Made by a program: the position numbers and the translations under genes. The notes under the pieces are model-generated. The model was not told the DNA's origin, ran no database searches, and saw nothing but the letters and a program-made list of their open reading frames with translations. From NCBI GenBank assembly GCA_016220175.1, contig JACRHZ010000032.1:1-35549 (forward strand): a DNA stretch of 35,549 bases, given 5' to 3'. The DNA is from Candidatus Peregrinibacteria bacterium (GTDB lineage: Bacteria; Patescibacteriota; Gracilibacteria; CAIRYL01). Positions 8,801 to 30,601 of the stretch are shown here, piece by piece (the first letter of the stretch is position 1; each line of letters begins with the position of its first letter).

Positions 8801-10123
8801 TGCATCTCCAATTGATCCTTCAGAAAACCAAATGTAAAGTGGCTTTGTAAAATCAAACGAATCACATGCCCACCCAGTTGTGAAATTACAACTGATGCTA
8901 TCGTGAAAACCTTTTATTACAGGGGCGCTTTCACACAAAGGCAAAGTTCCACCTCTTGTAACAAGATACCCAAACAAAAATCCAGGAAATATTGGCTGTC
9001 CTGCACTATTTGCAGGAGGCTCCCAATAGTGCCCTCCAGCAACATTCCATTCCAGCGCATCCACTTGATACTGGCAAGTAGGTACTTCGATAGGACCAAA
9101 ATTAACAAATCCAGCATCTACAGGAACTTCTACATAGTTATTTAAATGATCGAAAAGTTTTTGGGTCTTGGCAAAATTCGGATCCCCCTGCGGATAAAAA
9201 ACCTGATACGAAGCAAATCCTATTTTATAGACACACCCTCTATTGTTATAGGTTTGTCCGTTCTCTTCGAATTCATAGTAACTTGCTTTTACTTTTCCCT
9301 CGTTGTATTTCCCTCCACTTTCAGATATTCGTAAATCAAGAATATGTTTCTTTAAATCTTCGTTTGGATAACAGTTTTTTGGTAATTGACTACTCTCTGG
9401 CAACGATTGTGAAGGATCCTCACTCCACGTTTGCCCATCTACAAGAATCCCATCAAAATCCGTAGTATTTGAATTCACGCTTGGAGTCGTCGTAGTCGAA
9501 TTATCACTCTTAGTGCCAGAATCATCGGTGATAATCTGAGTCCCTTCGGTCGGAACAGAAATACTCAGCGTTGCTGTTGCGTTCTTAAAAACTTCCACTC
9601 CATCAAGCCGTTTTTCTTCTCCAAAACTATATCCATTTGCTCCGGGACTATATGTCACCTCTTCGCCACTCGGAAGCTCCACATGGAACTCCGCAGAAGC
9701 GGAAAAAGAGCCTTGGGAAAAGCCTTCCTTTGGTTTTGTCCACAAAAAGACATTTCCACATCCTGCGTTCAGTTCTCCTGTACAATTCTTCTCTGAAGAC
9801 ACTTGAAGTGGCGCTGAGCAGTCGCTTCCTCCCCAGTGAATCACATTTCCATTTTGAACTCCGCCAGGTGAAATCTGTGTTATTTCAAACTCCCCGAGAT
9901 CTGAGACGTCGAGATCGGCGTAACAGACCTTTACCTCAGCAGTTTCTGCATTCGGTCCAATTTGCCAATACGTCATTTGTTCATTCCCTTCACTTTCGGC
10001 AAGAAGCGAGAAAAAGAGCTGGAGAAACAGCGCTGAAAATAGCGCGAAGATTTTCCATAAACTTCTGTTGGAAAAATTTGGCTTTAAAGCGGCGTTTGGA
10101 GCCGAATTTTGCACTGAGGGCAT
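2867..10123 (-). CDS. Giant secreted DUF11-repeat surface protein with C-terminal membrane anchor
   Basis: A 2418-residue exported protein, probably an adhesin or cell-envelope protein. A signal peptide is visible (basic NRSLWK, then IFALFSALFLQLFFSLLA, about residues 20-42). A module at about 405-510 has the GWACDS...HGF...LKDGQLHNIYAYA pattern seen in other large surface proteins. About ten DUF11-type beta-sandwich repeats start near 517, 854, 993, 1141, 1283, 1436, 1775, 1928, 2101 and 2260. Each begins with a hydrophobic strand and Lys (for example PDLTVTKTI) followed by the 'V.YTL...N.G' pattern. Two near-identical Cys-containing Ig-like modules (TCSNF.A.PSS) lie near 1601 and 1679. A Gly9 linker follows TSNC at about 2084. 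The end, STGTANLAFFLFLLSATYLYVRR, is a membrane segment with a basic stop-transfer tail; no LPXTG motif is present. A sigma-70-like promoter lies upstream. Ligand unknown. Confidence 0.85.
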   Translation of the reverse strand: MPSVQNSAPNAALKPNFSNRSLWKIFALFSALFLQLFFSLLAESEGNEQMTYWQIGPNAETAEVKVCYADLDVSDLGEFEITQISPGGVQNGNVIHWGGSDCSAPLQVSSEKNCTGELNAGCGNVFLWTKPKEGFSQGSFSASAEFHVELPSGEEVTYSPGANGYSFGEEKRLDGVEVFKNATATLSISVPTEGTQIITDDSGTKSDNSTTTTPSVNSNTTDFDGILVDGQTWSEDPSQSLPESSQLPKNCYPNEDLKKHILDLRISESGGKYNEGKVKASYYEFEENGQTYNNRGCVYKIGFASYQVFYPQGDPNFAKTQKLFDHLNNYVEVPVDAGFVNFGPIEVPTCQYQVDALEWNVAGGHYWEPPANSAGQPIFPGFLFGYLVTRGGTLPLCESAPVIKGFHDSISCNFTTGWACDSFDFTKPLYIWFSEGSIGDAFGAVLADKEREPAVASLCGENANHGFVFPIPEKLKDGQLHNIYAYASNNRDGENVLQLLPPTASLPNPVNFTCQEKLTLIKTASVPEVQPGGKVTYTVTYANNSDEPARNVAISDILPVNATLDMDSVQIVSGPSMTWFIPLEGALQFDFTKTDSFGNRILDPHTGGVLRYTVTVKFDATQTVKNEACIFDYTIGGHNEIVCGETTVNIVKKTCADLNFHGDPAKIYNDIPNENGSPATLRWNNVFSQTATATITKSTNPAQPVSVNLNNGQYLDYPVQNTTYTMKVMDGGATLVSCPTPIEVRPPPKCTLTLKNGQNPPPGSDYRIIPLGQKAEFEWDISGTRADVGTMSPALAENHDYRIDGTGFTTVQSETGVKTYTLSLIKNAEGGFGPISRGCNAAFNVVDNSSSADIFIQKIADKTPPDYYYLGQFVTYTLAFGNSGGKNIPGPITITDDLPINFTADGFSFLPPNSFPENTQCQFNATRLSISCTKTDGLSPNSSYDISFKLRVMALLPGPDREKVTNEAIITPPLPLSPKFASVTIIVKEPTNVDLSLVKYVRDTQGNFVKSRQAAIGDILTYKLVYKNESPWLVNGSNEIYDFPGEAGLLGNYVFPTTGDEWCRGDTKVGPGGTIQGMKCTFGFVLPGQGAEILYQAKVLNTTDGKKIKNTAQIIPSIPDIVPANNTSFAEVTVAIPTPPNLYIDKTLDIGQSAIVDKDSEVRYVLTFGNRGGTIAKGLVTITDTTTGQQPGSAGLVVNYVIESVSPEGGKIDCPQTIEDTGFTCTIPEGLPANSGDYQIKYHVRAERPGNVINKATLSSTNPVQSVFDTQTITITPLSSKPDLTVTKTIIGGTEGTDSISRKTVKQGDTVEFKLEIKNIGTIGATNIKFSDGVTNWQKMSAPFDTNSTQGTTCDFPTNPAQWTGILNCTIGSLSSLGTGGNTAVITYKMTALAVTQTEVVTNTATVDPNHEIDESNELNNSDQAIVTIGSAVQKPDLIIEKYIGAIGTIEATVNKNTLVTYILRYRNQGPVAIPGGKNIQIKDQVTSGTGFISARFVEQQTLPPGVSCPTGPITGDLICTISNTIPANSDYYVIHYTIQAIGGDGTATVTVKNTVTIDATNVVDEGDGANAQNNAVIPGSGESNNTASATLNISSLTAPTCSNFIANPSSIVVGESSVLDWDQTNGISATINGANVSLINGPYLVSPTVTTEYLLRIIGVQGTTPAECRVIVTVTTGTQNPTCSNFTATPSSIFIGSSSRLRWDQTNGVTAEVRKDSQTGTLVFSGGANADDNDTNPVNITPTETTLYYLKIIGAAGTTPATCFSPVTVTIVPSIDLKVVKQAVNNLTERTPLTEVQPGQEFYYIVQYSNEGSAPTTVTAPNVQFIDDYDETKLTILDQTSIPAQGCTLSTGDGKITCAIGDLGPRGNLLPLEKYFKVKVNAALQAGQTATIFNEVDIEVTPGTPNPPPERIPANNHSEVTVTVKQGMIILEKSVEPISVDQIKSVTYTIKARNTTNAPQSFILKDAFRNGGKGDNNNTGSISGCSNGTPQITFDPLGSGSVRQGKGTYPEFGIDNLTVGSTVTVSYLCNASNADVPQNGGTSRVINDVIITDTTAPIDSSKNATVTLIGPNTPPPPGCTSNCGGGGGGGGGYREIRGEIILDVMKEVMDKDGKWQDANTADLAALIAEQKSQEVKYRIRIKNTGRFSSYATEIEDVFVSPTLIRKTVENVQGAKWDALAQRFTVDIIGTDTTAEITYTSILEARTNVVNGLEGVNTALIKRAGKNPDLPFNYVLEKIEGVGSDDPAYVKTTAARIVTGDISLKKTVDKEFVRPGEELYYTISIRNIGEKDFINMAIIDEFPFEYLDILEMDAKGVQMGNTLVFRKRVLRVGDPWTVNIKTRVKEETTNGIVIVNIAGISADDEDFSDKKVRTETTVIFTPEPPLNVSTGTANLAFFLFLLSATYLYVRRQAVSGQR

Positions 10124-12094: not shown

Positions 12095-12137
12095 TGATTT
12101 TATTCCCCTGTAGCTCAGTGGTAGAGCGTCCGGCTGT

Positions 12138-12669
12138 GAAATTACCAATCTTTCTTTTTATTGAATGAAAGATAAAAGAAAATACGCCGACCGTGCCGAG
12201 TATTTAAAAGCGGCTGTCAAGAAGCGTCGCAAGACAATTCGAGAAAAAGCAATTCTATACAAGGGCGGCAAATGTCAGCTTTGCGGGTACAAAAAATGTA
12301 TTGAAGCACTGGAGTTTCATCACTTTCTTGATAAGAAAAATTTTGGAATATCTCAAAAAGGGTATACCAGAAGTTGGGAAAGAGTGAAAAAGGAACTCGA
12401 GCTTTGTATGCTTCTCTGCGCAAATTGTCACCGTGAAGTAGAAAATGGCGTCACGCAGCTTCCCCGCTAAAGCGGGGTTGAAACTCGTTGGGATAACGGT
12501 GAAGGCTAAAACTTAAAGCATTTGAGTTATGCTAATACCGTGGGAACCCTCCTTCGCATAAAGCTTCGGAGGGGCGCCGTAGAGACTAGATACCAACGCA
12601 CCTAACTTTCGCACACGCAAAACATGGTGAAGATATAGTCCACGCTTCATGGAAACATGAGGATACGTG
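12138..12669 (+). ncRNA. Group I self-splicing intron in the tRNA-Asn anticodon
   Basis: The 5' exon ends in U and the intron ends in G, as group I splicing requires. P1 is exon GGCTGT (12132-12137) with guide GCAGCT (12455-12460), ending in the splice-site U-G wobble. P2 is CCCCGCT/AGCGGGG (12462-12468 / 12471-12477). P3 is CGTTGG/CCAACG (12486-12491 / 12593-12598). P4 is ACGGT/ACCGT (12496-12500 / 12537-12541). P7 is GACTA/TAGTC (12584-12588 / 12636-12640), within the typical AGAGACTAGAT and AAGATATAGTCC boxes. P8 is CACC/GGTG (12599-12602 / 12626-12629). P9 is TCATG-GAAA-CATGA, enclosed by CACG/CGTG. P10 is not evident. The whole HNH gene lies in the P1 loop. Confidence 0.92.
12165..12470 (+). 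CDS. HNH homing endonuclease encoded in the group I intron
   Basis: A 101-residue protein with a basic N-terminal part (KRKYADRAEYLKAAVKKRRK) followed by a zinc-coordinated HNH motif: CQLCGY, EFHHF, then CANCHREVE. The two CxxC pairs bind structural zinc and HH..N..H forms the betabetaalpha-metal nuclease. In this setting it is expected to cut intron-less tRNA-Asn alleles and so spread the intron. The gene occupies the loop between the two strands of P1. Its last codons overlap the internal guide sequence and its TAA (12468-12470) spans the start of the P2 loop, so protein and RNA constraints coincide. No strong ribosome binding site is visible; the ATG at 12165 is the only reasonable start. 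Confidence 0.88.
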   Translation: MKDKRKYADRAEYLKAAVKKRRKTIREKAILYKGGKCQLCGYKKCIEALEFHHFLDKKNFGISQKGYTRSWERVKKELELCMLLCANCHREVENGVTQLPR

Positions 12670-12680
12670 TAACCGGCAGG

Positions 12681-14309
12681 TCACTGGTTCGAATCCAGTC
12701 GGGGGAGCCATTCGCAAATTTCAGAGGGCAAAAGATCGTTTTGCCCAGTTTTGAAGTACTCTTTGTCCAGTTCGGATAACGGAATTGCGGGAATTGGTTC
12801 TAAAAGAGCAGAAAATGGTTTCTCCAGTTCTACTCCTATCTTTCCCGAAGTTAGGATGAATTTTGAGCCGAGCGTTTTTAAGATGTCTCTTTTTCCCATG
12901 AAATCTGCTGTTTCAAATTCCCAAACAATATTTCTTACTTTTTGAAAGAAGGCTTCGCATTTTGAAAGCCAGTTATTCCCTTCTCCTTTTAAATCCGCAA
13001 GCTGTTCTTCCATATCATCTACCTCTTTTTGAATACTCTTTTTCTGTGCTGAATATTCCTCATCTGAAATAAGCTCGCCACTTCTATTTGCTTCAGAGAG
13101 CCATTTTGTCGTGAGTCTTTCTTGTTTCAGCTTTGCATTTCGTATGTTCTGATTGATCAGCTCCTCTTTCCCCAGAAGAAAGCCATTTTCTTCCTTGTAT
13201 TGCTGTCTCAAATATTTAATTCCCCACGAAATGATACGATCTGGGATCTGAATACGCTGAATAACTTTTTTGAGAACTTCTTCAATTTTGTCTTCCCGAA
13301 GATGGGTGGTATATGAACATTCCGAATATTTCCCTTTTGCTTTCGCGCAACGATAATAGTGCATCCCTTTCTGATACTCTCCGCTGAGCCTATTTTTACA
13401 CTGAGGGCATTCTACGAGCAATGTATACAGGTACTCATTTTTTCTATTTTTTGGTCGGCTTCGCCCTCGCAATATTTCTTGGATTTTATCGAACTCAGTT
13501 TTTGTCATGAGCGGTTCATGACAACCTTGGTGAATTTCGTTCAAATACAGGAATTTTCCGGTATAGAAAATACTGCTGAGAATATTGAGGACACTCTGTT
13601 TGCAGAGCATTTTTCCTGAGTTTTTTCCTCGTATTCCCATTTTATATCCCTTTTCTCGAAGAATATTTGGAGAATATGTTCCGAGGAGGGTCAGATCAAT
13701 GAATTTTCGGATAATAGGCGCTTCAATTGGATCAAGTTCTATTCTTTTGAGTGGTCTTCCCAGCATATTGAGCATCTCTTGTTTTTTCTGGTCGTATTTT
13801 TTCCCCGAAATAACGCCGTTATCGTTGATATTCAAATATCCATACGGAGCTACTGCCGGATACTCACCTTTTTCCAATTTTGTCTTCACATTATTTTTCA
13901 CAAAGGAGCTGGTATCGTCTGAACTCTTTTTCGCCATAGCGAAATGAATATTCATCATGAACTTGTCATCTGAGGTATTGAGATACGCTTTTTCTGTTGT
14001 TCTGAGTTCCTTTATCCTCCCTTCATCCATAAATGAAATAATGAGTCCTCCATCTGCTCCATTGCGCGCCAATCTCGTCAAATGCCATGTGAGGATTGCA
14101 TCCGCTTTCCCAACTTCAATTTGATCCATCATTTTTTTAAATTTTGGTCGTCCGCGTTTATACGCGCTCATGTCTTCAGAAATAACATCGACAACTTCCA
14201 ATTGGTGTTTTTTTGCGTATGCCATAAGTTCTCTCTGTTGAGACTCGATACTGAGCACCTGCTGATCATCTCGATCTTGTGAACGCCGGCAGTAGATAAA
14301 ATACCTCAT
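12681..14309 (-). CDS. Large serine recombinase (integrase of element 1)
   Basis: About 542 residues. It integrates and excises the element by serine-linked double-strand exchange at the tRNA-Asn site. The catalytic domain begins MRYFIYCRRSQD with the nucleophile at Ser10 (YxRxS), and LTRLARNGADG carries the conserved arginines. Then come the recombinase domain, a zinc ribbon (CPQCKNRL...YYRCAKAKGKYSEC) and a coiled-coil segment (residues about 370-440) as in other large serine integrases. The C-terminus EWLPRLDSNQ is the antisense translation of the tRNA 3' end, so the gene overlaps the tRNA by 30 bases and its tail depends on where it is integrated. ATG 14309 is chosen over the upstream GTG at 14348. 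It overlaps the stop of a short leader reading frame (ATGA). Confidence 0.93.
   Translation of the reverse strand: MRYFIYCRRSQDRDDQQVLSIESQQRELMAYAKKHQLEVVDVISEDMSAYKRGRPKFKKMMDQIEVGKADAILTWHLTRLARNGADGGLIISFMDEGRIKELRTTEKAYLNTSDDKFMMNIHFAMAKKSSDDTSSFVKNNVKTKLEKGEYPAVAPYGYLNINDNGVISGKKYDQKKQEMLNMLGRPLKRIELDPIEAPIIRKFIDLTLLGTYSPNILREKGYKMGIRGKNSGKMLCKQSVLNILSSIFYTGKFLYLNEIHQGCHEPLMTKTEFDKIQEILRGRSRPKNRKNEYLYTLLVECPQCKNRLSGEYQKGMHYYRCAKAKGKYSECSYTTHLREDKIEEVLKKVIQRIQIPDRIISWGIKYLRQQYKEENGFLLGKEELINQNIRNAKLKQERLTTKWLSEANRSGELISDEEYSAQKKSIQKEVDDMEEQLADLKGEGNNWLSKCEAFFQKVRNIVWEFETADFMGKRDILKTLGSKFILTSGKIGVELEKPFSALLEPIPAIPLSELDKEYFKTGQNDLLPSEICEWLPRLDSNQ
12695..12713. repeat. Attachment site att1 (tRNA-Asn 3' end), 19-bp direct repeat
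   Basis: CCAGTCGGGGGAGCCATTC spans the 3' half of the T stem, the acceptor, the discriminator and CCA, plus three bases. An identical copy lies at 27589-27607. The copy here keeps the tRNA functional, as is usual for tRNA-targeted elements. Confidence 0.88.
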
Positions 14310-14395
14310 TGGTAAAACAAAAAATTCACAAAGTGGGCAACTCTGCACCCCAACATCAAATTCCGAAAGGAAGTCTTGTTGGAAGAGTTGCCCAT
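14306..14395 (-). CDS. Possible 29-codon leader reading frame before the recombinase
   Basis: On the minus strand AAGGAGG (14417-14411) lies 15 bases before an ATG at 14395. The frame (starting MGNSSNKTSF, ending VNFLFYQ) stops in TGA overlapping the recombinase ATG. Such overlap suggests translational coupling. The same frame can be extended to a TTG at 14518 that overlaps the stop of the preceding gene, giving 70 codons. No family resemblance is seen, and the DNA is also strongly constrained by inverted repeats, so the peptide itself may not matter. Confidence 0.25.
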   Translation of the reverse strand: MGNSSNKTSFRNLMLGCRVAHFVNFLFYQ

Positions 14396-16551: not shown

Positions 16552-18342
16552 TTAAAAAGGAAGCTTTTCGTTAGAAATATGGGGAGAAATAGGCTTTGCT
16601 TTTGCGCCAAAAATATTTTCAAAATCTTTCAGTGTTGCCGGTGTGTTTCCTTCCAATAAGCTGTGATTTTCATCGTCTCCGTCGTTGTCATCGGTGCATG
16701 GCAAAGAAGAAGTAGATTCTGACGGTATTGATATTGGTGGCGATTCTTTTGAATGATCGATGCTGGTATCGTTACTGGTTTTTCCATTTTCTGCTGTGGC
16801 ATGAAGCGATACATCGGTCTCAACGGTCTTTTTCTTAATTTTTTGGATACGAATGACACGCTTCCTTTTTTCCTCAAATTTTTGAATTGAGATCCCCTCT
16901 TCGGCAAGATTCGTTTTTAATTGGTTGAGCTTTGCGCTGAGGGCATTTGCGGCTTTCGGAAAATTGGGATCCTTCGGATCAATGCTCTTTTCCTCGGCAA
17001 TTCGCCGAAATATATCTAAGAGTTCAGATGGTGTTCCCTCCCATTCATCTCGCTCTTCCAAGAGAGTAACGACGCATATCGCAACGACGTTTTCGTAGAG
17101 AACTTCCTCATTCTGGCTTTTGATATTTTTTGAATATGCGCTCAAAAATGCTTCTTGGGTATATTCCAACGCCTCCGCAATAGCGCATCCCCAGAGCGAA
17201 AAATCCGCCATTCTCGGGGGTTCCGCAATTGATATAGTATTCTTGATTCGTAGTACATGAGAAAGTGCATGGAATATCCCCGAAAGCAATTGGGGACGGA
17301 GTGAGTCAAATTTCTTCCAGAGTTCTTTTTCTTGCATTCTGTTTTCCGGTGAAATCCTGTGAAGCTCAAATAATATTCCCCTTTCCATCAGATCTGGCTT
17401 TGTCGCAACGAGATTGATACCGTTGATACCAATACAACGTTTGAAAGAAAACATGATGTCATCATCGTCTGTATAGAGCTCTCTTTTTGAGAATCCTCCT
17501 CCGGTTACGGCTTTGCAAAACTCATCAGAGATCCATTCCGGCATTTGAGAAATGTTATCAAAAATTATGCACCAGTGGTGTGAGAGTTGTTGGACAAGTT
17601 CGGCAATGTTTTTAGGGAAACCGGAAGTTTCGAGAACTGAAGGATCAATAAGCTTTCTCAGAATTCTTGAGAGTGTAGATTTTGCAGAACCTTGAGCACC
17701 GTAAATAAAAGGGATTGGGTGGGGAAAGTCAGGAATAAAACACGATACAATCCAAACCAAAAGTATGAGCTTATGGTCGTCGTCATTGATGTTTATGAAT
17801 TCAAGAAGAAGATTGAAATTTCCTTCAGAAGCAGGCAAGACTTGTGCTTGTTGGTGATTATGGCGTTTAAAAAGAATGGGAGGAGTGTTGAATATGCTCC
17901 ATCCTTCTTCTGAAATCCTCACTGCCTGCCACTCCTCGTTACAGAGGTCATACCAAAGAACATCTTCATGCCAAGCGACACGGTTCCATAATTTGTGCTG
18001 GGGAGAATCAAAGATTGCTTTTGCTTCAATAACATTAAGTGCAGTATTGAGTGCATCAGAATTTGGCGCCTTTTTGTGGGTTTCCCAGTATATTTTCGCG
18101 AGCCACTGTTTGAATGCCTTGCTCCTGCACTTCCAAATTTCCAGATGATTTTTTACAGGAAATTGTACATAGGATTCCTTCAGGTCGTCATGGAAGAGTC
18201 GGATTCTCGTATCTTTTTCTACTATTTCAAGAAGAAGATCACTTTGCGACTTTTTTTCGCGATTCCCAGAATTTTCTTCAGACTTAAGAGTCCTTTTCTT
18301 CAGAATATTTTTTACAACCTTTTGCGTATGCTCATTCTGCAT
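16552..18342 (-). CDS. P-loop ATPase, probable replicative helicase of element 1
   Basis: 596 residues. Walker A GAQGSAKST lies near residue 217 and a Walker B-like strand CIIFDNIS near 257. An arginine-rich sensor region (KPDLMERGILFELHRI) follows near 330. The layout resembles D5-like/SF3 helicase ATPases of mobile elements that sit next to a CHC2 zinc-finger protein, and the 'GSAKST' form of the P-loop is typical of that group. The C-terminal 120 residues are low-complexity and polar (IDHSKESPPISIPSESTSS, then acidic). The gene lies 15 bases after the CHC2 protein gene, supporting a joint role in primer synthesis and unwinding during element replication. SF3 membership is an inference from motifs and context. 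Confidence 0.75.
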   Translation of the reverse strand: MQNEHTQKVVKNILKKRTLKSEENSGNREKKSQSDLLLEIVEKDTRIRLFHDDLKESYVQFPVKNHLEIWKCRSKAFKQWLAKIYWETHKKAPNSDALNTALNVIEAKAIFDSPQHKLWNRVAWHEDVLWYDLCNEEWQAVRISEEGWSIFNTPPILFKRHNHQQAQVLPASEGNFNLLLEFININDDDHKLILLVWIVSCFIPDFPHPIPFIYGAQGSAKSTLSRILRKLIDPSVLETSGFPKNIAELVQQLSHHWCIIFDNISQMPEWISDEFCKAVTGGGFSKRELYTDDDDIMFSFKRCIGINGINLVATKPDLMERGILFELHRISPENRMQEKELWKKFDSLRPQLLSGIFHALSHVLRIKNTISIAEPPRMADFSLWGCAIAEALEYTQEAFLSAYSKNIKSQNEEVLYENVVAICVVTLLEERDEWEGTPSELLDIFRRIAEEKSIDPKDPNFPKAANALSAKLNQLKTNLAEEGISIQKFEEKRKRVIRIQKIKKKTVETDVSLHATAENGKTSNDTSIDHSKESPPISIPSESTSSLPCTDDNDGDDENHSLLEGNTPATLKDFENIFGAKAKPISPHISNEKLPF

Positions 18343-18357
18343 AATGAAAATGAAAAA

Positions 18358-18930
18358 TTAAAAAGTACTCAAAATCTGCACTGCCTCTTTGAAATCGCAG
18401 TCGCACATGTATTTCACGAATTGAACTGGAGAACCTCCTTTCTGACAGCCGAAGCAGTAAAAAGAGTTCGTCGCCTCATAAATTTTGAAAGAAGGGCTGT
18501 CATCATTGTGCAAAGGACACCTGATTGATCTCCTTGGATTCTTCACCTCAATAAAGTGCTCCACCACCGGCAATATTTGTACTTCCTGAGTCGCGTGATC
18601 ATAATTTCTTTGCCATTCAGTTGATTTTGGAAGCTTGCTGAATGTTCTTTGATAGAGGTAGCACATGCGATCCAGTCTCTTTTTGAGTACGGGAAGGGTT
18701 CTTCCTTCGAGAACCTTGTCAAAAGCCTTCTCACGGAATTCTTGAGCAAAATCGCCAAGGTCAGAGAAAAGATCTGAAAAAATATATTCATCTCTCCTTT
18801 TTTCAAGGTACTCAATCTCTTGAGCAGTCCAGAGGATAGAATCTTCAAGATGTTCTTTGACTCCCTCTACTTTCAGAAGTTCATCTTCAATCACTGATTT
18901 GTCCTGCACTGGAACGTACTTTGTTGTCAT
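18358..18930 (-). CDS. CHC2 zinc-finger primase-like protein
   Basis: 190 residues. The C-terminal part (about 135-190) is a DnaG-type CHC2 zinc finger: IRCPLHNDDSPSFKIYE followed by FYCFGCQKGG and the helix FVKYMCDCDFKEAVQILS. In DnaG this module recognises template DNA for primer synthesis. The N-terminal 130 residues form a charged helical region (LEDSILWTAQEIEYLEKRRDEY), and no TOPRIM catalytic domain follows. It is therefore a stand-alone zinc-binding subunit, probably working with the helicase-like ATPase next door and recruiting a separate catalytic primase. Its ATG overlaps the stop of the 46-residue gene (ATGA). Confidence 0.85.
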   Translation of the reverse strand: MTTKYVPVQDKSVIEDELLKVEGVKEHLEDSILWTAQEIEYLEKRRDEYIFSDLFSDLGDFAQEFREKAFDKVLEGRTLPVLKKRLDRMCYLYQRTFSKLPKSTEWQRNYDHATQEVQILPVVEHFIEVKNPRRSIRCPLHNDDSPSFKIYEATNSFYCFGCQKGGSPVQFVKYMCDCDFKEAVQILSTF

Positions 18931-19067
18931 TTTTTAAAAAATAAAATCTCAAAAAGTTGTAACATCCGAGTTGCCTCCTTTTCTGCTTCTGAGTCTTCAA
19001 GCGCCACTCCAAACTCTTGCAAGTGGATCTCCTGATATTCCCGAATCATTTCTGGAGAAATCTTCAT
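18927..19067 (-). CDS. 46-residue conserved small protein of element 1
   Basis: The sequence begins MKISPEMIREYQEIHLQEFG and ends in LLQLFEILF-type residues (RMLQLFEILFFKK). It is an amphipathic helical mini-protein with an acidic middle (ALEDSEAEKEA). It overlaps the upstream DUF5659 gene and the downstream CHC2 gene by ATGA at both ends, so it sits in a strictly coupled operon. A short protein with the same layout ('F....LTDQELWEIHFNLTRFF') accompanies the DUF5659 gene of element 2 at 30434-30601. Function unknown; the constant company of DUF5659 and replication genes suggests a copy-control or partner peptide. Confidence 0.75.
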   Translation of the reverse strand: MKISPEMIREYQEIHLQEFGVALEDSEAEKEATRMLQLFEILFFKK

Positions 19068-19300
19068 TTGCTGTCGTACAGATAGTTTTTTAAAGTACGC
19101 TGGCTCAAAGAGAGCTGACGAGGATTGATTTTCAACTCGTCATGCCAAAACATTTGAACGGTATCTTGCAACTCATCAGAATCGAGAAAACAGAACTCGA
19201 CTCTTTTCGGATTACTCCGGTCAAGTTTTTCGAGTCGGAAACCTTCTGCGAGCAAAACGGATCCGAGAACAAAATCACTGGTGCGGTAGAGATTCGACAT
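19064..19300 (-). CDS. DUF5659 domain protein (element 1)
   Basis: About 78 residues: MSNLYRTSDFVLGSVLLAEGFRLEKLDRSNPKRVEFCFLDSDELQDTVQMFWHDELKINPRQL and a basic end. The 'YRTSD...A..L.A.GF.L...D..NP.R..F.F.DS.EL...V..FW' pattern is that of DUF5659, a small uncharacterised domain frequent in mobile elements of candidate phyla. The ATG at 19300 is preferred, with 19306 also possible; upstream codons show no similarity. It is the first gene of the leftward operon and overlaps the 46-residue gene by ATGA. A second DUF5659 protein is in element 2 (30177-30422). Function unknown. Confidence 0.75.
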   Translation of the reverse strand: MSNLYRTSDFVLGSVLLAEGFRLEKLDRSNPKRVEFCFLDSDELQDTVQMFWHDELKINPRQLSLSQRTLKNYLYDSK

Positions 19301-19529: not shown

Positions 19530-21632
19530 TCACTTATCCAAAAAAACAGGATTGATAGCAAATCCTTCGGCTTTTCCTCCTATTATTACATCTTCTCCTT
19601 CAAATGATTCCTTGAGAATACCCTTAAGCTCACTGATATTTTTTTCCATAGTCCCGTCACCATATTGATCACCATTTGCCTGACGAACTTTTGTTAAAAG
19701 ATCCTCAAAGGAAATTTTTCTCTTATTCTGGTTTTTGGAATATGAAAGGGTCATTGCAAATATTTCATTCCCGTGACCACCAAGTTGCCTTAAAAGACTT
19801 CTTCCTCGAACAATTTTTCCAGATTTGCTTCCATAAAATATTTGTTTTTTTAGATTGAGTGTCTCAATTTTTTCATCTTTTTCAAAAAGTCCTTGAGGTA
19901 CATATGCAAATTTTGCTTTTTGTAACAGTGTTTTTCTGTCCACTTGCATTTTCTTTATTCCGAAAGAAACAATACCCCCAATGCTGACTTGGTTTTCAAC
20001 GAGCATATCTTTGTCAGAAATGGGGACAAGTACAATTGGGCTGGGTTCTTTTTGTAGATATATCTGCCAATCAGCAGATTCGCCTCTATCTCGAATGAAA
20101 AATACATCGACTCCATCGAGAATTCCCAGCAGATAGACCTCTCCTTCTTTTTTGATTTCAAATATTCCTTTTAGCTTCAAAAGTTCGCGCAATTTTTGCA
20201 AAAACTTCTCAAGATCAAAGCGCCACCTTTTCATTTGTTCAGGATGTATTCTTAATTTTCCTGTCCCAACGCTACTACAAGTAAAATAAGCTCCTTCTTC
20301 ATCTCTCTGGACAGGCTCCGCCTTTCTGTCTTCACAATGCCAGCATTCTACTCTATCAATTTCTCCATCCTCAATCAGCATATTTTCCCTTTTGAGAATC
20401 TCAAATGTTTTCTTAAGCTTGCCTTCCATGTTCCAAAAATCAAAATATGGGGAAGATTTTTCTTTTAAAAACTGCCAAATATTAGCTTCTAAATCAGTAC
20501 CCTTAATAATTCCCCAATTTTCAATATATTCCCAACAAAGCTGATCTTCTTCACTCCCTCCAAGGCTACAATAATTAGGGAAACCAAGGCTGAAAGTATG
20601 ATTCCCTATTATGCCTTCACCTGAAAATTTTACTTGTATCTTTACAGATTGGACAAAAGCATTAGGTGCATAAACATTATGCTTATTCATCATTCCATAA
20701 ATTTCATTCGGGTCGTCTGTCCCCTCTGCTTTTAATGCAACCATCTCTTTCTTTTGGTATCTGTCCTTAACGCTTATATACTGAAGTTTAATGAATTCTA
20801 CCTTTCCTTTTGCTTTTGCCTTTTCTTTAAGGGTTGTTCCAAATTGCCTATTCAGAAACTGCCAAAGGGCAAACTGTTTATTTTCAAGTTCGTCATCAAA
20901 TTCTTTTTCCAGAATGTCTTCCACAAATACTTTTTTTACATCTCTGATCCGTTCCCATTTGTAATGAGTATTGGATTTAAACCATAATTTTCCTTTTTTC
21001 GGATAAATCACGAAGAAAAATTCTGATACAGGACGCTCTGTTACATGCGAAATTTCTTCGGTGTCTTCTTTATATTTCGAAATTGTAGCTGGTAGCCCTT
21101 CAGGATAGGCAACAAAACAAATTCGATCTTCCTGTATAAATGATTCTACATCGCACTTAATGATGCGATTTTCTTCTTTTTTGAAATGTTTTTTAATCTC
21201 GATGGCAAGTTCTTCCTCTTTTTTTTGAATATCCTGAATATTATCAGAAAAATCAATATTCTCTACCTCCCAATTCTTAGAGATATTAACCTTATCCCAT
21301 ACTCTCAATTCATTAAGAAGTTTTCTGTGGTATAAAAAAAGCCACATCACCAGTTCTTCCTCAGCATTATATTGAGGAAGAATTATATTTTGGTTTGTCG
21401 CTTCTGTATGAATATCAAGACTCCCCTTATGAGAGCAAAAGTCTGATATTATCAAAAAATCACTCTCAATTATTCGCTGTGAATCTTTATGGAGGGTTTT
21501 TATGTACTCCAAAATTTGTTCACTGCTCGTATTATCTGAGAAGGGATATTCAATGCCTTTATTTTTAAAATATTCTGGGAGAAAGTCTTTTGTTCGGTCA
21601 ATGAACTTTATCCATGGTAGTCCTTTTGCCAT
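19530..21632 (-). CDS. Unknown 700-residue protein of element 1 with a Cys-rich motif
   Basis: Not recognised. A soluble protein without a signal peptide or membrane segments. A region around residues 425-460 has VECWHCEDRKAEPV...YFTCSS, a possible zinc-binding cluster (C-x2-C and a later C, plus H). The end (about 645-680: ISFEDLLTKVRQANGDQYGDGTMEKNISELK) resembles a winged-helix or DNA-binding tail. The middle shows alternating beta strands and charged helices. It lies divergent to the restriction-modification operon and beside its XRE regulator, 59 bases away, so a role in defence or in regulating the element is possible. No catalytic motif of a known family could be identified. Start ATG 21632. 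Confidence 0.7.
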   Translation of the reverse strand: MAKGLPWIKFIDRTKDFLPEYFKNKGIEYPFSDNTSSEQILEYIKTLHKDSQRIIESDFLIISDFCSHKGSLDIHTEATNQNIILPQYNAEEELVMWLFLYHRKLLNELRVWDKVNISKNWEVENIDFSDNIQDIQKKEEELAIEIKKHFKKEENRIIKCDVESFIQEDRICFVAYPEGLPATISKYKEDTEEISHVTERPVSEFFFVIYPKKGKLWFKSNTHYKWERIRDVKKVFVEDILEKEFDDELENKQFALWQFLNRQFGTTLKEKAKAKGKVEFIKLQYISVKDRYQKKEMVALKAEGTDDPNEIYGMMNKHNVYAPNAFVQSVKIQVKFSGEGIIGNHTFSLGFPNYCSLGGSEEDQLCWEYIENWGIIKGTDLEANIWQFLKEKSSPYFDFWNMEGKLKKTFEILKRENMLIEDGEIDRVECWHCEDRKAEPVQRDEEGAYFTCSSVGTGKLRIHPEQMKRWRFDLEKFLQKLRELLKLKGIFEIKKEGEVYLLGILDGVDVFFIRDRGESADWQIYLQKEPSPIVLVPISDKDMLVENQVSIGGIVSFGIKKMQVDRKTLLQKAKFAYVPQGLFEKDEKIETLNLKKQIFYGSKSGKIVRGRSLLRQLGGHGNEIFAMTLSYSKNQNKRKISFEDLLTKVRQANGDQYGDGTMEKNISELKGILKESFEGEDVIIGGKAEGFAINPVFLDK

Positions 21633-21691: not shown

Positions 21692-21937
21692 TCACTGATT
21701 TTTATTTTTGAGAGGCTTTTTTTCAAATCTGAACAATTCCCAAAGAGGAATCCCAAATCCCCTCGCCAATTTTTGAGAGGTCTCCAAACCAGTATTTGGA
21801 GGCTTTTTCCCTTCTATTCTCTGGATGTACTTCAAACTTACGCCTGATTGTTGTGCCAACTTCTCCTGAGTTAGCTCGTTCCGACTGCGTAGAGTCCTCA
21901 CCTGTTGCCCGAATTGTTGTTGGATAGATTCTTTCAC
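21692..21937 (-). CDS. XRE-family helix-turn-helix regulator (probable controller of the restriction genes)
   Basis: About 81 residues with one Cro/C1 domain: VRTLRSRNELTQEKLAQQSGVSLKYIQRIEGKKPPNTGLETSQKLARGFGIPLWELF, in which TQEKLAQQSGVSLKYIQRIE is the helix-turn-helix. The coding frame has no ATG. A GTG at 21937 has a suitable GAGGA upstream and matches usual domain length, while a TTG at 21976 gives 94 residues. It is divergent from the nuclease-methylase gene, whose start is 100 bases away, the place of controller (C) proteins that delay restriction until methylation is complete. That role is inferred from size, domain and position. Confidence 0.8.
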   Translation of the reverse strand: MKESIQQQFGQQVRTLRSRNELTQEKLAQQSGVSLKYIQRIEGKKPPNTGLETSQKLARGFGIPLWELFRFEKKPLKNKNQ

Positions 21938-22036
21938 ATGTTTATATTCCTCATTACACCTTCTATTGAGAACCAATGATTGTTGGTGTACTATCGCTGG
22001 TGCTTATTCTTGGCGTGTATCTTCAAATCCGTCTAA

Positions 22037-23818
22037 ATGGAAAATATTTTTGAAAAAATTTTGAAGGACGGTGAAAGGAAGGGATATTTTCGTCTCCATA
22101 ACGATGGAACAAAAATTGAATATCTTCCGTCCGGTCACAAGGAAAATCTAAAGGATCCCGAAGAAAAAATCCGTGCCGAATATTATTTTGATCTCGTTGA
22201 AAAATATGGCTATCCGGCTACGAATATTGGACTTGAAGTAGAAATGCCAGATCGAACACCTGAACGCTATGCAGACATCGTTGTTTACGAAAATGACTCT
22301 CAGACAAAACCGTATATTGTCATTGAGTGTAAAAAAGATGGTATTTCCGACGCAGAATTTGAGCAAGCCACCAAACAAGCGATAGCCAATGCGCGAGTTC
22401 TCCATGCTCCGTTCTCAAACTGCGTCGCTGGGAATACTCGGCGCGCTATGGAAACGGCTGTTTGGAATGATAAGGAGCCGGAAAAAGCGACTATCACAGA
22501 TATTCCGATTTCCTACGGTAAAGTTGAAGAATTTCGCTACAAGAAAGGCGATTCAAAGTCGGATCTGAAGCCGATCGATCAACAAGCCCTAAAGCGAACT
22601 TTTCAAAAATCCCAAGATACATTATGGGCGGGTGGCAAGCGTGCACCAACGACAGCATTTGATGAATTTGCAAAAATTATTTTCGTAAAAATTAGAGATG
22701 AGAAAAAAGGAAGGAAAGCCGGAGAACCTTATGACTTTCAGATCAAAACCCATGAAAGCGCCGCGAGTGTTTACAAGCGAATAGATAATTTATATCAAGA
22801 AGCAAAGATAAAAGACCCTGAAGTTTTTAAAGAAAGTTTGAAAGTTGAGCCAGAGGAGCTTTATACCGTCGTTGAACACTTGCAGAGCATCTCGCTTGAT
22901 AAAACTGACCTTGACACCAAAGGTGTTGCTTTCGAGCATTTCATGGAGGATTTTTTCAAAGGTAAAAGTGGTCAATTTTTCACTCCACGTAATATCGTAA
23001 GCTTTGCTGTCAAAATGATGAGCATAAAGAATGACGATTTCGTGCTCGATCCCGCGTGTGGCTCCGGTGGTTTTCTTCTCCATGCACTCGATGAAATCCG
23101 TCGTCAAGCAGACGAATACTATCCACAAGATAAAGAACAATCAGAGACAGGAGAGCACAGACGATATTGGCACGATTTTGCACAAAACAATCTTTTCGGC
23201 ATTGAAATAAATGATTCCATTGCGCGCGTAGCCAAAATGAACATGATTATTCACGACGATGGACACACTAACGTCATCGGTTTTGATGCGCTCAACGACA
23301 TTGAGAAAATGACAATAAAAAACCGTGGATTTGCGCCAAATCATTTTGATTTTATCGTTACCAATCCGCCATTTGGTGCGACGGTAAAACGAAGTGAGCA
23401 TCCATACCTTGAAAGGTTCGTGCTTGCTCAAAACGGCAAGAAAATCCGCGATAACCAAAAAACAGAAATTCTATTTATCGAACGATGTATTGATTTCCTG
23501 AAACCCGAAACAGGTCGAATGGCAATAGTTTTGCCGGATGGCATTTTGACCAACTCATCGCTCCAGTATGTCCGCGATTTTCTGATGGAGCGTTGTCAGA
23601 TTTTAGCCGTCGTTTCGCTTCCGCAATTTGCTTTTACGCACTTCGGCGCGGGCGTAAAATCCTCCCTTGTTTTTGTGCGACGAAAAAGTATAAAGGAAAA
23701 ACTTGGACGCTATAAAATCTTTATGGCGATTGCCGACCATATTGGGTATGACGCGATAGGGCGCAAAGACTCAAAGAATGATTTGGGCGAGATTTTGAAG
23801 CAGTATCTCGAATTTTAA
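22037..23818 (+). CDS. BcgI-like restriction-modification subunit: nuclease fused to N6-adenine methylase
   Basis: 593 residues with two domains. Residues 1-130 form a PD-(D/E)XK nuclease of the type I HsdR N-terminal type, with E48, D80 (YADIVVYE) and E97-x-K99 (IVIECKK). Residues about 280-590 are a type I-style N6-adenine methylase: GQFFTPRNIVSFAV, SAM motif I VLDPACGSGGFLLHA near 336, GIEIND, and catalytic TNPPFG near 442. One subunit with both activities plus a separate specificity subunit is the arrangement of BcgI-type (type IIB) systems; translocase motifs of HsdR are absent. It starts the cargo operon and ends six bases before the specificity gene. Restriction activity depends on the three visible nuclease residues, all present. 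Confidence 0.85.
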   Translation: MENIFEKILKDGERKGYFRLHNDGTKIEYLPSGHKENLKDPEEKIRAEYYFDLVEKYGYPATNIGLEVEMPDRTPERYADIVVYENDSQTKPYIVIECKKDGISDAEFEQATKQAIANARVLHAPFSNCVAGNTRRAMETAVWNDKEPEKATITDIPISYGKVEEFRYKKGDSKSDLKPIDQQALKRTFQKSQDTLWAGGKRAPTTAFDEFAKIIFVKIRDEKKGRKAGEPYDFQIKTHESAASVYKRIDNLYQEAKIKDPEVFKESLKVEPEELYTVVEHLQSISLDKTDLDTKGVAFEHFMEDFFKGKSGQFFTPRNIVSFAVKMMSIKNDDFVLDPACGSGGFLLHALDEIRRQADEYYPQDKEQSETGEHRRYWHDFAQNNLFGIEINDSIARVAKMNMIIHDDGHTNVIGFDALNDIEKMTIKNRGFAPNHFDFIVTNPPFGATVKRSEHPYLERFVLAQNGKKIRDNQKTEILFIERCIDFLKPETGRMAIVLPDGILTNSSLQYVRDFLMERCQILAVVSLPQFAFTHFGAGVKSSLVFVRRKSIKEKLGRYKIFMAIADHIGYDAIGRKDSKNDLGEILKQYLEF

Positions 23819-23823
23819 AAGCT

Positions 23824-25206
23824 ATGAATCAAGTAGCAACAACAAAACCGGAAATATTTGAGATATGGAGCGATGAGATAATCGGGCGTATTGATCCTTT
23901 CTTCTATCATCCTAAATTCAAGGAACTAACAAAAGTGTTGAAAAAAACGCAAGCCGATCCGTTCGGGAATATTATTGCAACGATTACAAATGGACTCGAT
24001 TATCGCGATTTTGAAGAAGATGGCATAACGGACTATTTGAGAGTTGCGAATATTAAGCCGTATGAAATAGATTTTAGCGATGTAAAAAAGGTTTCGCTTG
24101 TATCTTCGGAAATCAGTAAGGAAATCCAATTACGCAAAGGCGATATTCTTTTGACACGAAAGGGTACATACGGTATTGCCGTTGCTCTTGATCGTGATCT
24201 TGATGCAATAATCAGTTCGGAGATTTTTCTCATCCGCTTGAATCGTGACGATATTGACCCCAAATACATAGAGGCATTTTTAAATTCGAGCATAGGTCAA
24301 AAGCAGTTTCTTAATCAAAAAGTAGGAGCAATAATGGGCAGTCTCTCGCAGGATGCTGTAAAAAGTATACTTATTCCGCTTCCAGCCGAAGCAGTACAGC
24401 GAGAAGTTTTATCTCTTATTCAAAAAGCCTATACAGAAAAGCGAAAAAAAGAGGAGGAAGTTGAAAAAATCCTCGTTTCCATCGATAGCTTCGTTCTTGG
24501 CGAGCTTGGGATAGAAATTTCAAAAGGAGGGACAGAAAAGGTCTTTGAAATTTGGAGCGATGAAATCCAAACACGCCTCGATCCCATATATTTACGTGAC
24601 TACTCAATATTTGAAAACCTCAAATCAAAATATCCGTTTGTAACCGTCTCTGATGTCATTTCTCAACCACCTCAATATGGAGCGAATGAGCGGTCTATTG
24701 CGGGTGATCCAGATCAAAATATCCGCTATATAAGAATTACCGACATTGATGAAAATGGGGAGCTCAGAAACAATGACTGGAAAACCGCCGAACATATTGA
24801 AGATAAGTATTTTTTACAGCAGGATGATTTACTTTTTGCTAGAAGCGGAGCAACGGCAGGAAAAACATATCTTTATAAAGATCATGATGGTAAAGCAATT
24901 TTTGCAGGCTATCTGATACGTTTCAAAATTGATCCCAAGAAGGTTCTTCCTGACTATGTTTTCTATCTTACAAAAACGCGATATTACGCATTATGGAAGA
25001 ATCTTATTCAACGACCCGCTGGTCAGCCAAATATAAACTCCGAAGAGTTCAAATCATTTAGATTTCCGCTCCCTCCTTTGGATGCTCAAGAGAAAATCAC
25101 AAATGCTATAAAGTTGTCTTACTCAAAAATACGCACTCTGCGCGCGCAAGCGACTCAAGTTCTGGTAGAGGCGCAGAAACAAGTCGAGCAGATTATTTTT
25201 GCATAA
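23824..25206 (+). CDS. hsdS: Specificity subunit (HsdS type) of the restriction-modification pair
   Basis: 460 residues with two target recognition domains in tandem, each introduced by the same sequence: FEIWSDEIIGRIDPFF at residue about 12 and FEIWSDEIQTRLDPIY at about 240. Each domain ends in the helical linker typical of HsdS (LIPLPAEAVQREVLSLIQKAY and FRFPLPPLDAQEKITNAIKLSY), consistent with recognition of a bipartite DNA site. A single complete S subunit with one nuclease-methylase fusion gene fits BcgI-like systems. It begins six bases after the fusion gene, so the two are co-translated. Confidence 0.88.
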   Translation: MNQVATTKPEIFEIWSDEIIGRIDPFFYHPKFKELTKVLKKTQADPFGNIIATITNGLDYRDFEEDGITDYLRVANIKPYEIDFSDVKKVSLVSSEISKEIQLRKGDILLTRKGTYGIAVALDRDLDAIISSEIFLIRLNRDDIDPKYIEAFLNSSIGQKQFLNQKVGAIMGSLSQDAVKSILIPLPAEAVQREVLSLIQKAYTEKRKKEEEVEKILVSIDSFVLGELGIEISKGGTEKVFEIWSDEIQTRLDPIYLRDYSIFENLKSKYPFVTVSDVISQPPQYGANERSIAGDPDQNIRYIRITDIDENGELRNNDWKTAEHIEDKYFLQQDDLLFARSGATAGKTYLYKDHDGKAIFAGYLIRFKIDPKKVLPDYVFYLTKTRYYALWKNLIQRPAGQPNINSEEFKSFRFPLPPLDAQEKITNAIKLSYSKIRTLRAQATQVLVEAQKQVEQIIFA

Positions 25207-27556: not shown

Positions 27557-29425
27557 TTATGAGATAAGAAAGAAAGTTCGGATAACGCCCAGTCGGGGGA
27601 GCCATTCAGAAAATTTCGGGTCAAACAAAGCGTTTGCCGTCTTTTTCTCGTGCAAGTCAAATGCTTGAATTTTATTTTCAACGTTCGCATTAACGGCTCC
27701 ATTCAGCCCTTCTTTGATGAGTACGTCAAAGGGTTTTCGAAGCGTAAAGTTCAGTTTTCCCTCTTTCAAAAAAATGTGCGAGCTCATGGATTTGAGAATT
27801 TCGCGTTTTGTGTGAATAGTTCCGGTTTTGAAGACAAACCTCGCTTTGGAAGCCATATTCAGGAAATTTTCGGTTTGTGCGACCCAGTCGGTATTGTTTT
27901 TATTGAGTGATTCCAGCTTTTTCATGACTTCACCGAGTTTCGCTTCCAGCTCATTTTTCTTGTTGGCGAAAAGCTCCGCGTCGATCTCGCCATTCAGGCG
28001 CATTTCCACCAGTTTATCCATTTTCCCACGAGCCAGCTTGTGATCTTTCTGCAAAGCGGTCAAAGAATGGTACTGCATGATGCTATTTTGAAAATGCTCG
28101 GATTTAAGCGTCTTAATACAATAGTCATAAACCGCCTCATCCATGCTCAAGCGCGACAATAGTGCATCAACCTGCTCTTCAAGGTCACTCAAAGCCACAG
28201 AAACTTTCGGCCTGCCAGTGCCATGATTAAGTTGAGCGCAAGCCTTACCGCCACGCTTTTTACCCGTACAGTGGGCATATGCGTGATTTTTCACATGCTG
28301 AAAAGTTTCCTTGTTCAAAAGTTCTTCACAGGCTACACAACGCGTCGGAATGCGTAGAGAACTTGAAGCCGTCATCCAGCGATTGCATTTATAACAACGA
28401 TATTTCACTTTTTCCTCACAAACCACCGAACCTTCGCAATAACCACATCTTATCATTCCGGCAAAAACAAACTCCTTGGTTTTTGGACGGGCAAAATGCG
28501 AAAGTCCTTTTTCTTTCAAGATTTCCTGCACTCGATAAAACAGCTCTTCACTCACCATCGGCGGATGACTGCCCTGAACAATCGCATAATCCTCAAAAAC
28601 TTCACCTTTGATCTCATTCTTCAGAATCATCTCCTTAATATCCTGCAAAGACTTAACTCCCTGCTTTTTCCCAACCTGCATTTTGCCGATAAAGAAAACA
28701 TCGCGAAAAAGATTGTAATAGGTATTAATCCCGACAAATGAGCCTTCGGGAGTCGCTTTGGTCGGTCTGGCACGAAGCCCCATTTCTTCGGCTTTTTTCT
28801 TGATGGCAGGCATACTGTAGGTTCCAGTAGCGAAAAGTTCCCATAAACGTTTGAGAATCTCGAATCTCACAGGATCTTTATCCACCCACTTTTTGCCTTT
28901 TCGGTCGCCACAGTTCAAATAACCGATTCTGGCCCAACCGATCCAGTTTCCATCCCTGATTTTGCTCTTCAGTCCGCGCACAACGTTCACGCCTTTCTGG
29001 TCATTTTCCAGCTTCGCATTCGCGACCGCCTGCACCAGCATGTATTTATGGAACGGTTCATTTTTGAATTCCTGCGAGGGTGTACGCACCTGCTTGATTT
29101 TGCCTGACTCCAGAAGAGAAATAATCCGCTCAACATCGCCTCCGTTTCTGGAAATACGGTCAAGGGACCAAACCAAAATACAATCAAATTTGCGATTCTC
29201 CGCCTTTTCGATCAAATCATTGAAAACCATTCTTTGGCCCGATTTCTTCGCGGAATAACTTTCCGTCAGCGTTTCCATAACCTGAAATTTTTCATCGGGA
29301 GTTCGGGCATATTCGTTAAAACGGCTAATAAAATTCTTTAATTCCGTTTGTTGGTCATCAAGCGACTGCACTTGTCTTTCATCGCTTTCCGAGGATTTGC
29401 GGCAATAGATGACTGTTTTCTGCAT
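27557..29425 (-). CDS. Large serine recombinase (integrase of element 2)
   Basis: About 622 residues. MQKTVIYCRKSSES provides the nucleophile Ser11 (Y7-x-R9-x-S11), and LVWSLDRISRNGGDV carries the conserved arginines. A recombinase domain follows, then a cysteine-rich zinc region (IRCGYCEGSVVC...CYKC...CVACEE) and a coiled-coil C-terminal segment. Its tail reads SEWLPRLGVIRTFFLIS. WLPRL is encoded by the 19-bp att sequence; the rest differs from recombinase 1 (DSNQ), as expected if the original tail was replaced when element 1 inserted at the same site. ATG 29425 is chosen over the GTG at 29449. Related but not identical to recombinase 1. Confidence 0.93.
   Translation of the reverse strand: MQKTVIYCRKSSESDERQVQSLDDQQTELKNFISRFNEYARTPDEKFQVMETLTESYSAKKSGQRMVFNDLIEKAENRKFDCILVWSLDRISRNGGDVERIISLLESGKIKQVRTPSQEFKNEPFHKYMLVQAVANAKLENDQKGVNVVRGLKSKIRDGNWIGWARIGYLNCGDRKGKKWVDKDPVRFEILKRLWELFATGTYSMPAIKKKAEEMGLRARPTKATPEGSFVGINTYYNLFRDVFFIGKMQVGKKQGVKSLQDIKEMILKNEIKGEVFEDYAIVQGSHPPMVSEELFYRVQEILKEKGLSHFARPKTKEFVFAGMIRCGYCEGSVVCEEKVKYRCYKCNRWMTASSSLRIPTRCVACEELLNKETFQHVKNHAYAHCTGKKRGGKACAQLNHGTGRPKVSVALSDLEEQVDALLSRLSMDEAVYDYCIKTLKSEHFQNSIMQYHSLTALQKDHKLARGKMDKLVEMRLNGEIDAELFANKKNELEAKLGEVMKKLESLNKNNTDWVAQTENFLNMASKARFVFKTGTIHTKREILKSMSSHIFLKEGKLNFTLRKPFDVLIKEGLNGAVNANVENKIQAFDLHEKKTANALFDPKFSEWLPRLGVIRTFFLIS
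27589..27607. repeat. Attachment site att2, second 19-bp copy
   Basis: CCAGTCGGGGGAGCCATTC, identical to the tRNA-Asn 3' end at 12695-12713, here without a tRNA body upstream. It is the right end of element 1 and the left end of element 2, inside the end of the second recombinase gene. Upstream bases (GTTCGGATAACGCCCAG) only loosely resemble the tRNA T arm. Confidence 0.88.
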
Positions 29426-29491
29426 ATATATCTTATAAGTTAAGGACACAATGCGCTAAAGAACTGGAATAGCTAGTGGATAAGCGAAAAA

Positions 29492-30176: not shown

Positions 30177-30422
30177 TTAGAAACTGTCAGCATGAAGCAG
30201 AACCTTGGCCTTTTTCACGGCCAGAATAAAATCCTGAACCCTGACATTGCTGTTTTGCCAGAAAGCCTCGACTGCATCCGTAAGTTCGTGCGAATCCTCG
30301 AAAAAGAACAGACATTTATTTCTGTTCTGCTTGTCGATGGCTTTCACCTCGAAACGATTGGCAATAAGCCAAACAAAAAGGTACCAGTCCGCCGTTTGAA
30401 AGTATGAGATTTGCATATTCAT
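30177..30422 (-). CDS. DUF5659 domain protein (element 2)
   Basis: About 81 residues beginning MNMQISYFQTADWYLFVWLIANRFEVKAIDKQN and containing FFFEDSHELTDAVEAFWQN, the same pattern as the DUF5659 protein of element 1 at 19064-19300 (YRTSD...FLDSDELQDTVQMFW). Start at 30422 (or 30416); the longer upstream frame overlaps the small gene and shows no similarity. It begins 12 bases after the 55-residue gene. The recurring position near replication genes suggests a conserved element function, so far unknown. Confidence 0.7.
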   Translation of the reverse strand: MNMQISYFQTADWYLFVWLIANRFEVKAIDKQNRNKCLFFFEDSHELTDAVEAFWQNSNVRVQDFILAVKKAKVLLHADSF

Positions 30423-30433
30423 GTGATAAAAAA

Positions 30434-30601
30434 TTAAGAAACTTGATTGATGGCAATAAAAAATCGCGTCAGATTGAAATGGATTTCCCACAACTCCTGA
30501 TCGGTCAATTCACACCTGTATTTAGGCTCAAAAAAAGCACGCAAATCCTTCTTTTGCGTTTCCGTAAGTTCGCCTGCTTTTAATTGTTCATGTGTATCCA
30601 T
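30434..30601 (-). CDS. 55-residue small protein of element 2
   Basis: Begins MDTHEQLKAGELTETQKKD and ends ELWEIHFNLTRFFIAINQVS. The acidic LTDQEL...LTRFF region corresponds in layout to ALEDSEAEKEATRMLQLF of the 46-residue protein in element 1, and both genes lie next to a DUF5659 gene. It has no membrane segment or catalytic motif. Function unknown. Confidence 0.65.
   Translation of the reverse strand: MDTHEQLKAGELTETQKKDLRAFFEPKYRCELTDQELWEIHFNLTRFFIAINQVS

Follow-up and report, generated by a model that had tools for sequence, protein, structure and literature searches.

Recombination directionality factors (RDFs) of large serine integrases are often 58–110 aa long, are unrelated to each other in sequence and are encoded beside replication genes or next to int. 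Xis/Orf7 of TP901-1 has 64 aa, and its gene precedes ssb and rep in the early operon. Large serine integrases need their RDF for recombination of attL with attR; the RDF, often a small protein, binds the integrase, and RDFs vary from system to system and can be located among replication genes (PMC5814800, PMC5311408). RDFs are regarded as the bottleneck with large serine integrases, in that an integrase is easily found while its RDF has little sequence in common with others and differs from them in size and location (PMC5814800, PMC5311408), and the search for RDFs of thousands of recombinases has been put forward as future work (PMC10083194). The 62-aa gp52 of phiJoe was recognized by its location, its size and a distant likeness to another RDF, and its phylogeny runs parallel to that of its integrase (PMC5311408).

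Two kinds of described elements resemble the ones reported here. The PLE islands of Vibrio cholerae (Int, PexA) likewise bear defence functions, and the large serine recombinase that moves them depends on a small RDF (PMC6002521); however, PLE takes its RDF from a phage, whereas the elements of CPR bacteria encode the candidate RDF themselves. Streptococcal elements that reside in rumA and have a single serine integrase likewise have the 3′ end of the integrase gene at att, and this end is swapped with the target gene (PMC4701971). In contrast to the rumA elements, the targets in the elements reported here are tRNA genes, which are always read antisense.

An integrative element and a probable second one at one tRNA gene

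The DNA analysed here, in the following called the window, is a stretch of 35,549 nucleotides from a Candidatus Peregrinibacteria bacterium. It contains an integrative element and, next to it at the same tRNA gene, a probable second one, each with its own large serine recombinase (Table 1). Both recombinases show the domain order of this class, Resolvase followed by Recombinase, and a zinc ribbon was found in the element 1 enzyme only. Element 1 has direct att repeats, one of them in the target gene, and the recombinase at one end, with the 3′ end of the recombinase gene running antisense within the 3′ half of the tRNA gene. The 19-bp repeat has two exact copies genome-wide, both in the window, at an expectation of 0 for its 18-base core. 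For element 2 only one end was seen; the repeat does not occur a third time in the genome. Since element 2 abuts the right repeat, and since the 3′ end of its recombinase gene overlaps this repeat, both elements are placed side by side at one site.

Table 1. Features of the window, in order of position.
Feature	Position	Strand	Basis and remarks
Repetitive, secreted-looking protein, outside the elements	2867..10123		2418 residues; by eye
tRNA gene split by a group I intron; element 1 inserted at its 3′ end	12110..12710		
HNH-like ORF inside the tRNA insertion	12165..12470		by eye
Large serine recombinase, element 1	12681..14348	-	Resolvase, Recombinase, Zn_ribbon_recom all above cut-off
Left att repeat CCAGTCGGGGGAGCCATTC, end of tRNA gene	12695..12713	+	exact 19-bp copy
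596-aa protein, same gene run, probable ATPase/helicase	16552..18342	-	weak AAA matches below cut-off; inferred from Walker-like stretch and position
CHC2 zinc-finger primase, next gene after SP	18358..18930	-	PF01807, 63 bits
SP, element 1	18927..19067	-	46 aa; candidate recombination directionality factor; held-out HMM E=1.3e-13
DUF5659 protein, element 1	19064..19300	-	78 aa from ATG; PF18903, 35.8 bits
700-aa protein upstream of DUF5659, C-terminus winged-helix-like	19530..21632	-	grouped with OmpR/PhoB-like C-termini by some iterated profiles at E<0.01; the profile of this group hits response regulators
HTH regulator, start of element 1 gene run	21692..21976	-	HTH_31, 36 bits
Element 1 cargo: type I restriction-modification M (22037-23818) and S (23824-25206)	22037..25206	+	N6_Mtase 145 bits, Methylase_S 66 bits
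Large serine recombinase, element 2	27557..29449	-	Resolvase and Recombinase
Right att repeat (element 1), where element 2 adjoins	27589..27607	+	exact 19-bp copy
Phage replication protein O homologue, element 2	29492..30157	-	PF04492, 76.8 bits
DUF5659 protein, element 2	30177..30422	-	81 aa; PF18903, 38.3 bits
SP, element 2	30434..30601	-	55 aa; upstream of DUF5659; relatives-only HMM E=2.7e-10
245-aa protein of element 2, C-terminal domain OmpR/PhoB-like; lies upstream of SP and DUF5659	30693..31430	-	profiles matching response regulators

An initial annotation of this DNA had paired, in both elements, a DUF5659 protein with a gene of 46–55 residues (here called SP) next to replication genes, with the gene order swapped between the elements. 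This observation is confirmed. Both DUF5659 proteins exceed the curated Pfam cut-off of 23.6 bits for PF18903, and the small ORFs are present on the minus strand exactly as annotated. The order runs from DUF5659 to SP in element 1, where the start of SP overlaps the stop of DUF5659, and from SP to DUF5659 in element 2; the adjoining replication genes encode the CHC2 primase and the Phage_rep_O protein, respectively. These two genes are the only above-cut-off DUF5659 matches in the whole 1.49-Mb genome. By score, both proteins are members of PF18903, a domain of unknown function, of which no mention was found in the literature searched; the searches tried for such elements in Patescibacteria likewise found no paper.

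Minor observations concern the target gene and the cargo. Inside the insertion in the tRNA anticodon loop, the core of a group I intron was matched by RF00028 with 46.5 bits (E=1.4e-10), slightly less than the gathering score. By our own reading of the loop the target tRNA would be His(GTG), while ARAGORN gave Thr or Phe, depending on the placement of the intron. The M protein of element 1 also matches the HSDR N-terminal domain, and no R gene was identified in this element.

A small protein family and its company across CPR

The initial annotation even understated the case, as it had not claimed homology between the two tiny genes, which form one family. The element 1 protein was recovered among the 413 ORFs of the window by an HMM trained without the window, and the element 2 protein among 14,019 ORFs by an HMM built from five relatives of its own type only (E-values in Table 1). 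The two sub-profiles, of the element 1 and the element 2 type, align with 95% probability (E=4e-8). The held-out matches together with this profile alignment therefore show that the two proteins are homologous; in a sequence alignment they share just 9% identity. The consensus of SP is roughly mLSeEaIeeFq.lYkk.fG.eiSdeEA.e.g..LlrlvkiiykP. Searches against Pfam, NCBIfam and PHROGs yielded no consistent match, only scattered single-member ones; SP is an undescribed family absent from these three collections. The element 1 protein is modelled as a two-helix hairpin (pLDDT 93.8), for which the PDB fold search gave nothing significant; the hairpin has no recognisable DNA-binding domain, and the median net charge of SP is 0. 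Weak sequence matches of SP to solved structures of acyl carrier protein and calmodulin were read as chance.

As an observation made by eye, SP-like domains also form the N-terminal part of some longer proteins that have a zinc-ribbon-like CxxC stretch (L133 6013-6579, L151 6416-7030, L084 6127-6531), and those of L133 and L151 have an HTH-like C-terminus as well.

DUF5659 is present in 73 of 380 Patescibacteria/CPR genomes, and the named relatives of one DUF5659 locus are mostly Patescibacteria. Cultured phages and plasmids gave no tblastn match to DUF5659 or SP, and in the viral contigs searched DUF5659 was found in two contigs only and SP in none. Phage proteins also named DUF5659 match the DUF5659 fold, which AlphaFold2 predicts for the element 1 protein as strand-helix-strand-strand-helix-helix (pLDDT 95.6).

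The neighbourhoods of 80 DUF5659 loci were compared. SP is present in 53 of them and a large serine recombinase in 71, the latter within 5 kb in 69 cases (median 1.7 kb); only ~3% of the DNA would be expected to lie that near to a recombinase, as estimated from 40 of these genomes, each of ~1 Mb, with 118 recombinase matches in total. Among the 45 cases with DUF5659 and SP on the same strand, the gap between the two genes lies between -88 and +48 nt in 41 (median +1) and is at most 25 nt in 40; the two genes are usually translationally coupled. The next larger gene often encodes a primase, a Prim-Pol, a Toprim or an O-type replication protein. In 73 of 80 loci the gene upstream of DUF5659 has the same orientation, and the product of this upstream gene often ends in an OmpR/PhoB-like winged helix (profile against ArlR, E=1.4e-6) or another HTH, these groups overlapping at a loose threshold. 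All in all, CPR genomes contain a conserved early operon consisting of a DNA-binding regulator with a winged-helix or HTH C-terminus, DUF5659, SP and replication genes, followed further on by a recombinase with its 3′ end at att. The company seen in the window is thus kept phylum-wide, replication genes included, and DUF5659 is found neither mostly without the small gene nor mostly outside mobile elements, either of which would have spoken against the initial annotation. SP is missing from 27 of the 80 loci. It is also missing from L156, a tailed-phage contig of 13 kb, where DUF5659 (7885-8127) belongs to the early region and adjoins, as judged by eye, probable recombination and SSB genes.

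Two tiny overlapping genes within a mobile element might also represent a toxin-antitoxin pair that stabilizes the element. Yet DUF5659 and SP are each common without the other, other than expected for a toxin always accompanied by its antitoxin, and the confident DUF5659 model yielded nothing significant in the PDB fold search, toxins included (best E 0.37). This explanation is thus considered highly improbable.

SP follows the recombinase lineage

Strong SP matches are as frequent away from DUF5659 as beside it, with 53 of 106 lying away. For 62 DUF5659 loci, SP presence was mapped onto the tree of their recombinases, where it requires 5 changes compared with 14.4 after shuffling (0 of 500 shuffles as low), with the same outcome for FastTree and IQ-TREE: SP is present in 43 of 45 rows on one side of the tree and missing in 14 of 17 on the other. 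On the DUF5659 tree, which has few resolved forks, SP presence requires 19 changes compared with 20.1 after shuffling (174–179 of 500 as low), so DUF5659 and SP are not seen to be gained and lost together on this poorly resolved tree. The type of primase or replication gene served as an operon-mate control. It requires 16 changes on the recombinase tree compared with 18.8 after shuffling, which argues that operon-mates in general are not locked to the recombinase; on the DUF5659 tree it does not cluster at all (23 changes compared with 23.0).

The divergence of the proteins shows the same preference. Mantel correlations were calculated between the distance matrices of four proteins encoded at the same loci. 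With tree distances, SP and recombinase correlate at r=0.49 (n=57); in the common set of 45 loci the values are 0.47 for SP and recombinase, 0.27 for DUF5659 and SP and 0.18 for DUF5659 and recombinase. The partial correlations in this set amount to 0.44 for SP and recombinase given DUF5659, 0.21 for DUF5659 and SP given the recombinase and 0.07 for DUF5659 and recombinase. BLOSUM distances from one common set of 43 loci gave 0.65, 0.29 and 0.28 for the three pairs in the above order; the contrast between the correlations is smaller with tree than with BLOSUM distances, but it persists. Among five segments of the recombinase, the nominally highest correlation with SP is that of the coiled coil (0.54 compared with 0.41–0.47), by a small margin. 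As one to five genes often separate SP from the recombinase, plain adjacency fails to explain this lock.

A second set comprised 80 recombinases away from DUF5659 matches, with SP scored upstream. In the joint recombinase tree there is one clade with SP in 35 of 35 loci (29 with and 6 without DUF5659; 8 from the second, DUF5659-independent set), a count that includes L219, where SP overlaps the annotated recombinase start and was scored by inspection, and that was obtained with an SP HMM trained on DUF5659-linked SPs, members of this clade included. Outside the clade, SP is found in 19 of 38 loci with DUF5659, compared with 4 of 55 without. Nearest-neighbour prediction at all distances for recombinases away from DUF5659 gave 50 predicted positives, of which 12 had SP and 38 were wrong, and 16 predicted negatives, none of which had SP; the low precision arises because two large SP-less recombinase clades sit among SP-bearing ones. 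The 12 SP-recombinase pairs away from DUF5659, taken alone, gave r=0.46 and a rank rho of just 0.09. On the whole, the presence and divergence of SP go with the recombinase lineage, not with DUF5659 or the primase; this lock is tight in one lineage of recombinases and incomplete in the others.

These results bear directly on the functional proposal of the initial annotation, an undescribed two-component function of DUF5659 and SP such as copy control, in which the two would form one complex controlling replication or copy number of the element. The translational coupling, the position just ahead of primase, O or Prim-Pol genes and the residual partial correlation between the two proteins would suit such a complex. 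Against this, each gene frequently occurs without the other (see the counts above), and on the DUF5659 tree the distribution of SP is near random, as is that of the replication-gene type. A two-component function of this kind is therefore regarded as quite improbable, and nothing was found that points to copy control. The partial correlation and the difference between 19 of 38 and 4 of 55 loci nevertheless leave room for some direct link between DUF5659 and SP.

SP as a candidate directionality factor

Taken together, the size of SP, its place in the early operon and its phylogeny parallel to the recombinase suggest that it might be the RDF, i.e., the excision switch, of these large serine recombinases, a reading to which we give about an even chance. 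SP resembles the small RDFs TP901-1 Xis/Orf7, SPbeta SprB, phiJoe gp52 and phiRv1 Rv1584c in its size and in being element-encoded in an early or replication operon or near int (PMC5311408), and it shares with phiJoe gp52 the phylogeny parallel to the integrase (PMC5311408). There is no sequence likeness between SP and TP901-1 Xis, such likeness not being required of RDFs, and SP matches no PHROG. As expected of an RDF, SP is encoded with its cognate serine recombinase in the same lineage, as seen from the clade with SP throughout and from the few changes on the recombinase tree, while SPs without a nearby recombinase stand against this role.

If SP is an RDF, induction would start with the regulator turning on the early operon. 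SP would then bind the recombinase, perhaps at the base of the coiled coil, as phiC31 gp3 and A118 gp44 do, and lift the block on attL x attR recombination, upon which the element would be excised. Meanwhile, the co-transcribed replication genes would copy the element, so that the position of SP in the early operon would tie excision to replication. DUF5659 would be an independent early protein and not the obligate partner of SP; that it serves as a replication or nucleoprotein accessory is a tentative guess. A sequence family that tracks a recombinase lineage offers testable recombinase-RDF pairs, and SP, if it is indeed an RDF, would provide a functional handle on mobile elements that are widespread in CPR, a group with almost no genetics.

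Among 40 SPs away from DUF5659, a recombinase match was present in the fetched stretch for 17 and absent for about 23. Some DUF5659-free SPs lie 7–18 kb from a recombinase, where they may sit in element cargo, and others have none near. Several recombinase-less SPs end defence-like operons, as judged by eye. In L134, for example, SP follows genes for an OLD-like nuclease and a UvrD-like helicase, and in L134, L140 and others it closes a row of defence-like genes while the stretch fetched around it contains no recombinase. SPs in such positions imply that the family may have a wider or second role. On the SP tree, which lacks resolution, SPs linked and unlinked to a recombinase are not clearly separated (15 changes compared with 17.1 after shuffling, 55 of 500 as low).

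SPs at the end of defence-like operons, and the fusions to a zinc ribbon and an HTH, would also fit a different explanation, in which SP is no RDF but a regulator or adaptor that is encoded in the early operon and serves transcription of the element, the recombinase gene included, and in which the lineage lock reflects a co-inherited module for regulating the recombinase. Against this, no DNA-binding domain is recognisable in the two-helix hairpin of neutral median charge, and in DUF5659 loci SP is usually not adjacent to the recombinase. Such a regulator is considered unlikely.

A second tiny family, T2 ('MLSIEeaRkLLg...SDeE...'), replaces SP where the recombinases fall in another clade; it was found beside DUF5659 in L068, L073, L085, L093 and L100 and ahead of the recombinase in L235. 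Returning to SP as an RDF, it is conceivable, though doubtful, that large serine recombinase lineages across CPR are matched to different families of tiny element-encoded RDFs, with SP serving one broad lineage and T2 a sister lineage, with the RDF genes located either behind DUF5659 in the early operon or immediately in front of the recombinase gene, and with excision wired to replication. If true, one phylum would supply many ready-made recombinase-RDF pairs.

In addition to the window, recombinase genes with their 3′ end in a tRNA gene, always antisense, were observed in 38 of 54 DUF5659 loci (L034-L112) and in 26 of 61 loci away from DUF5659 (L166-L245), with many tRNA identities. Such recombinases may take their C-terminus from the target tRNA gene.
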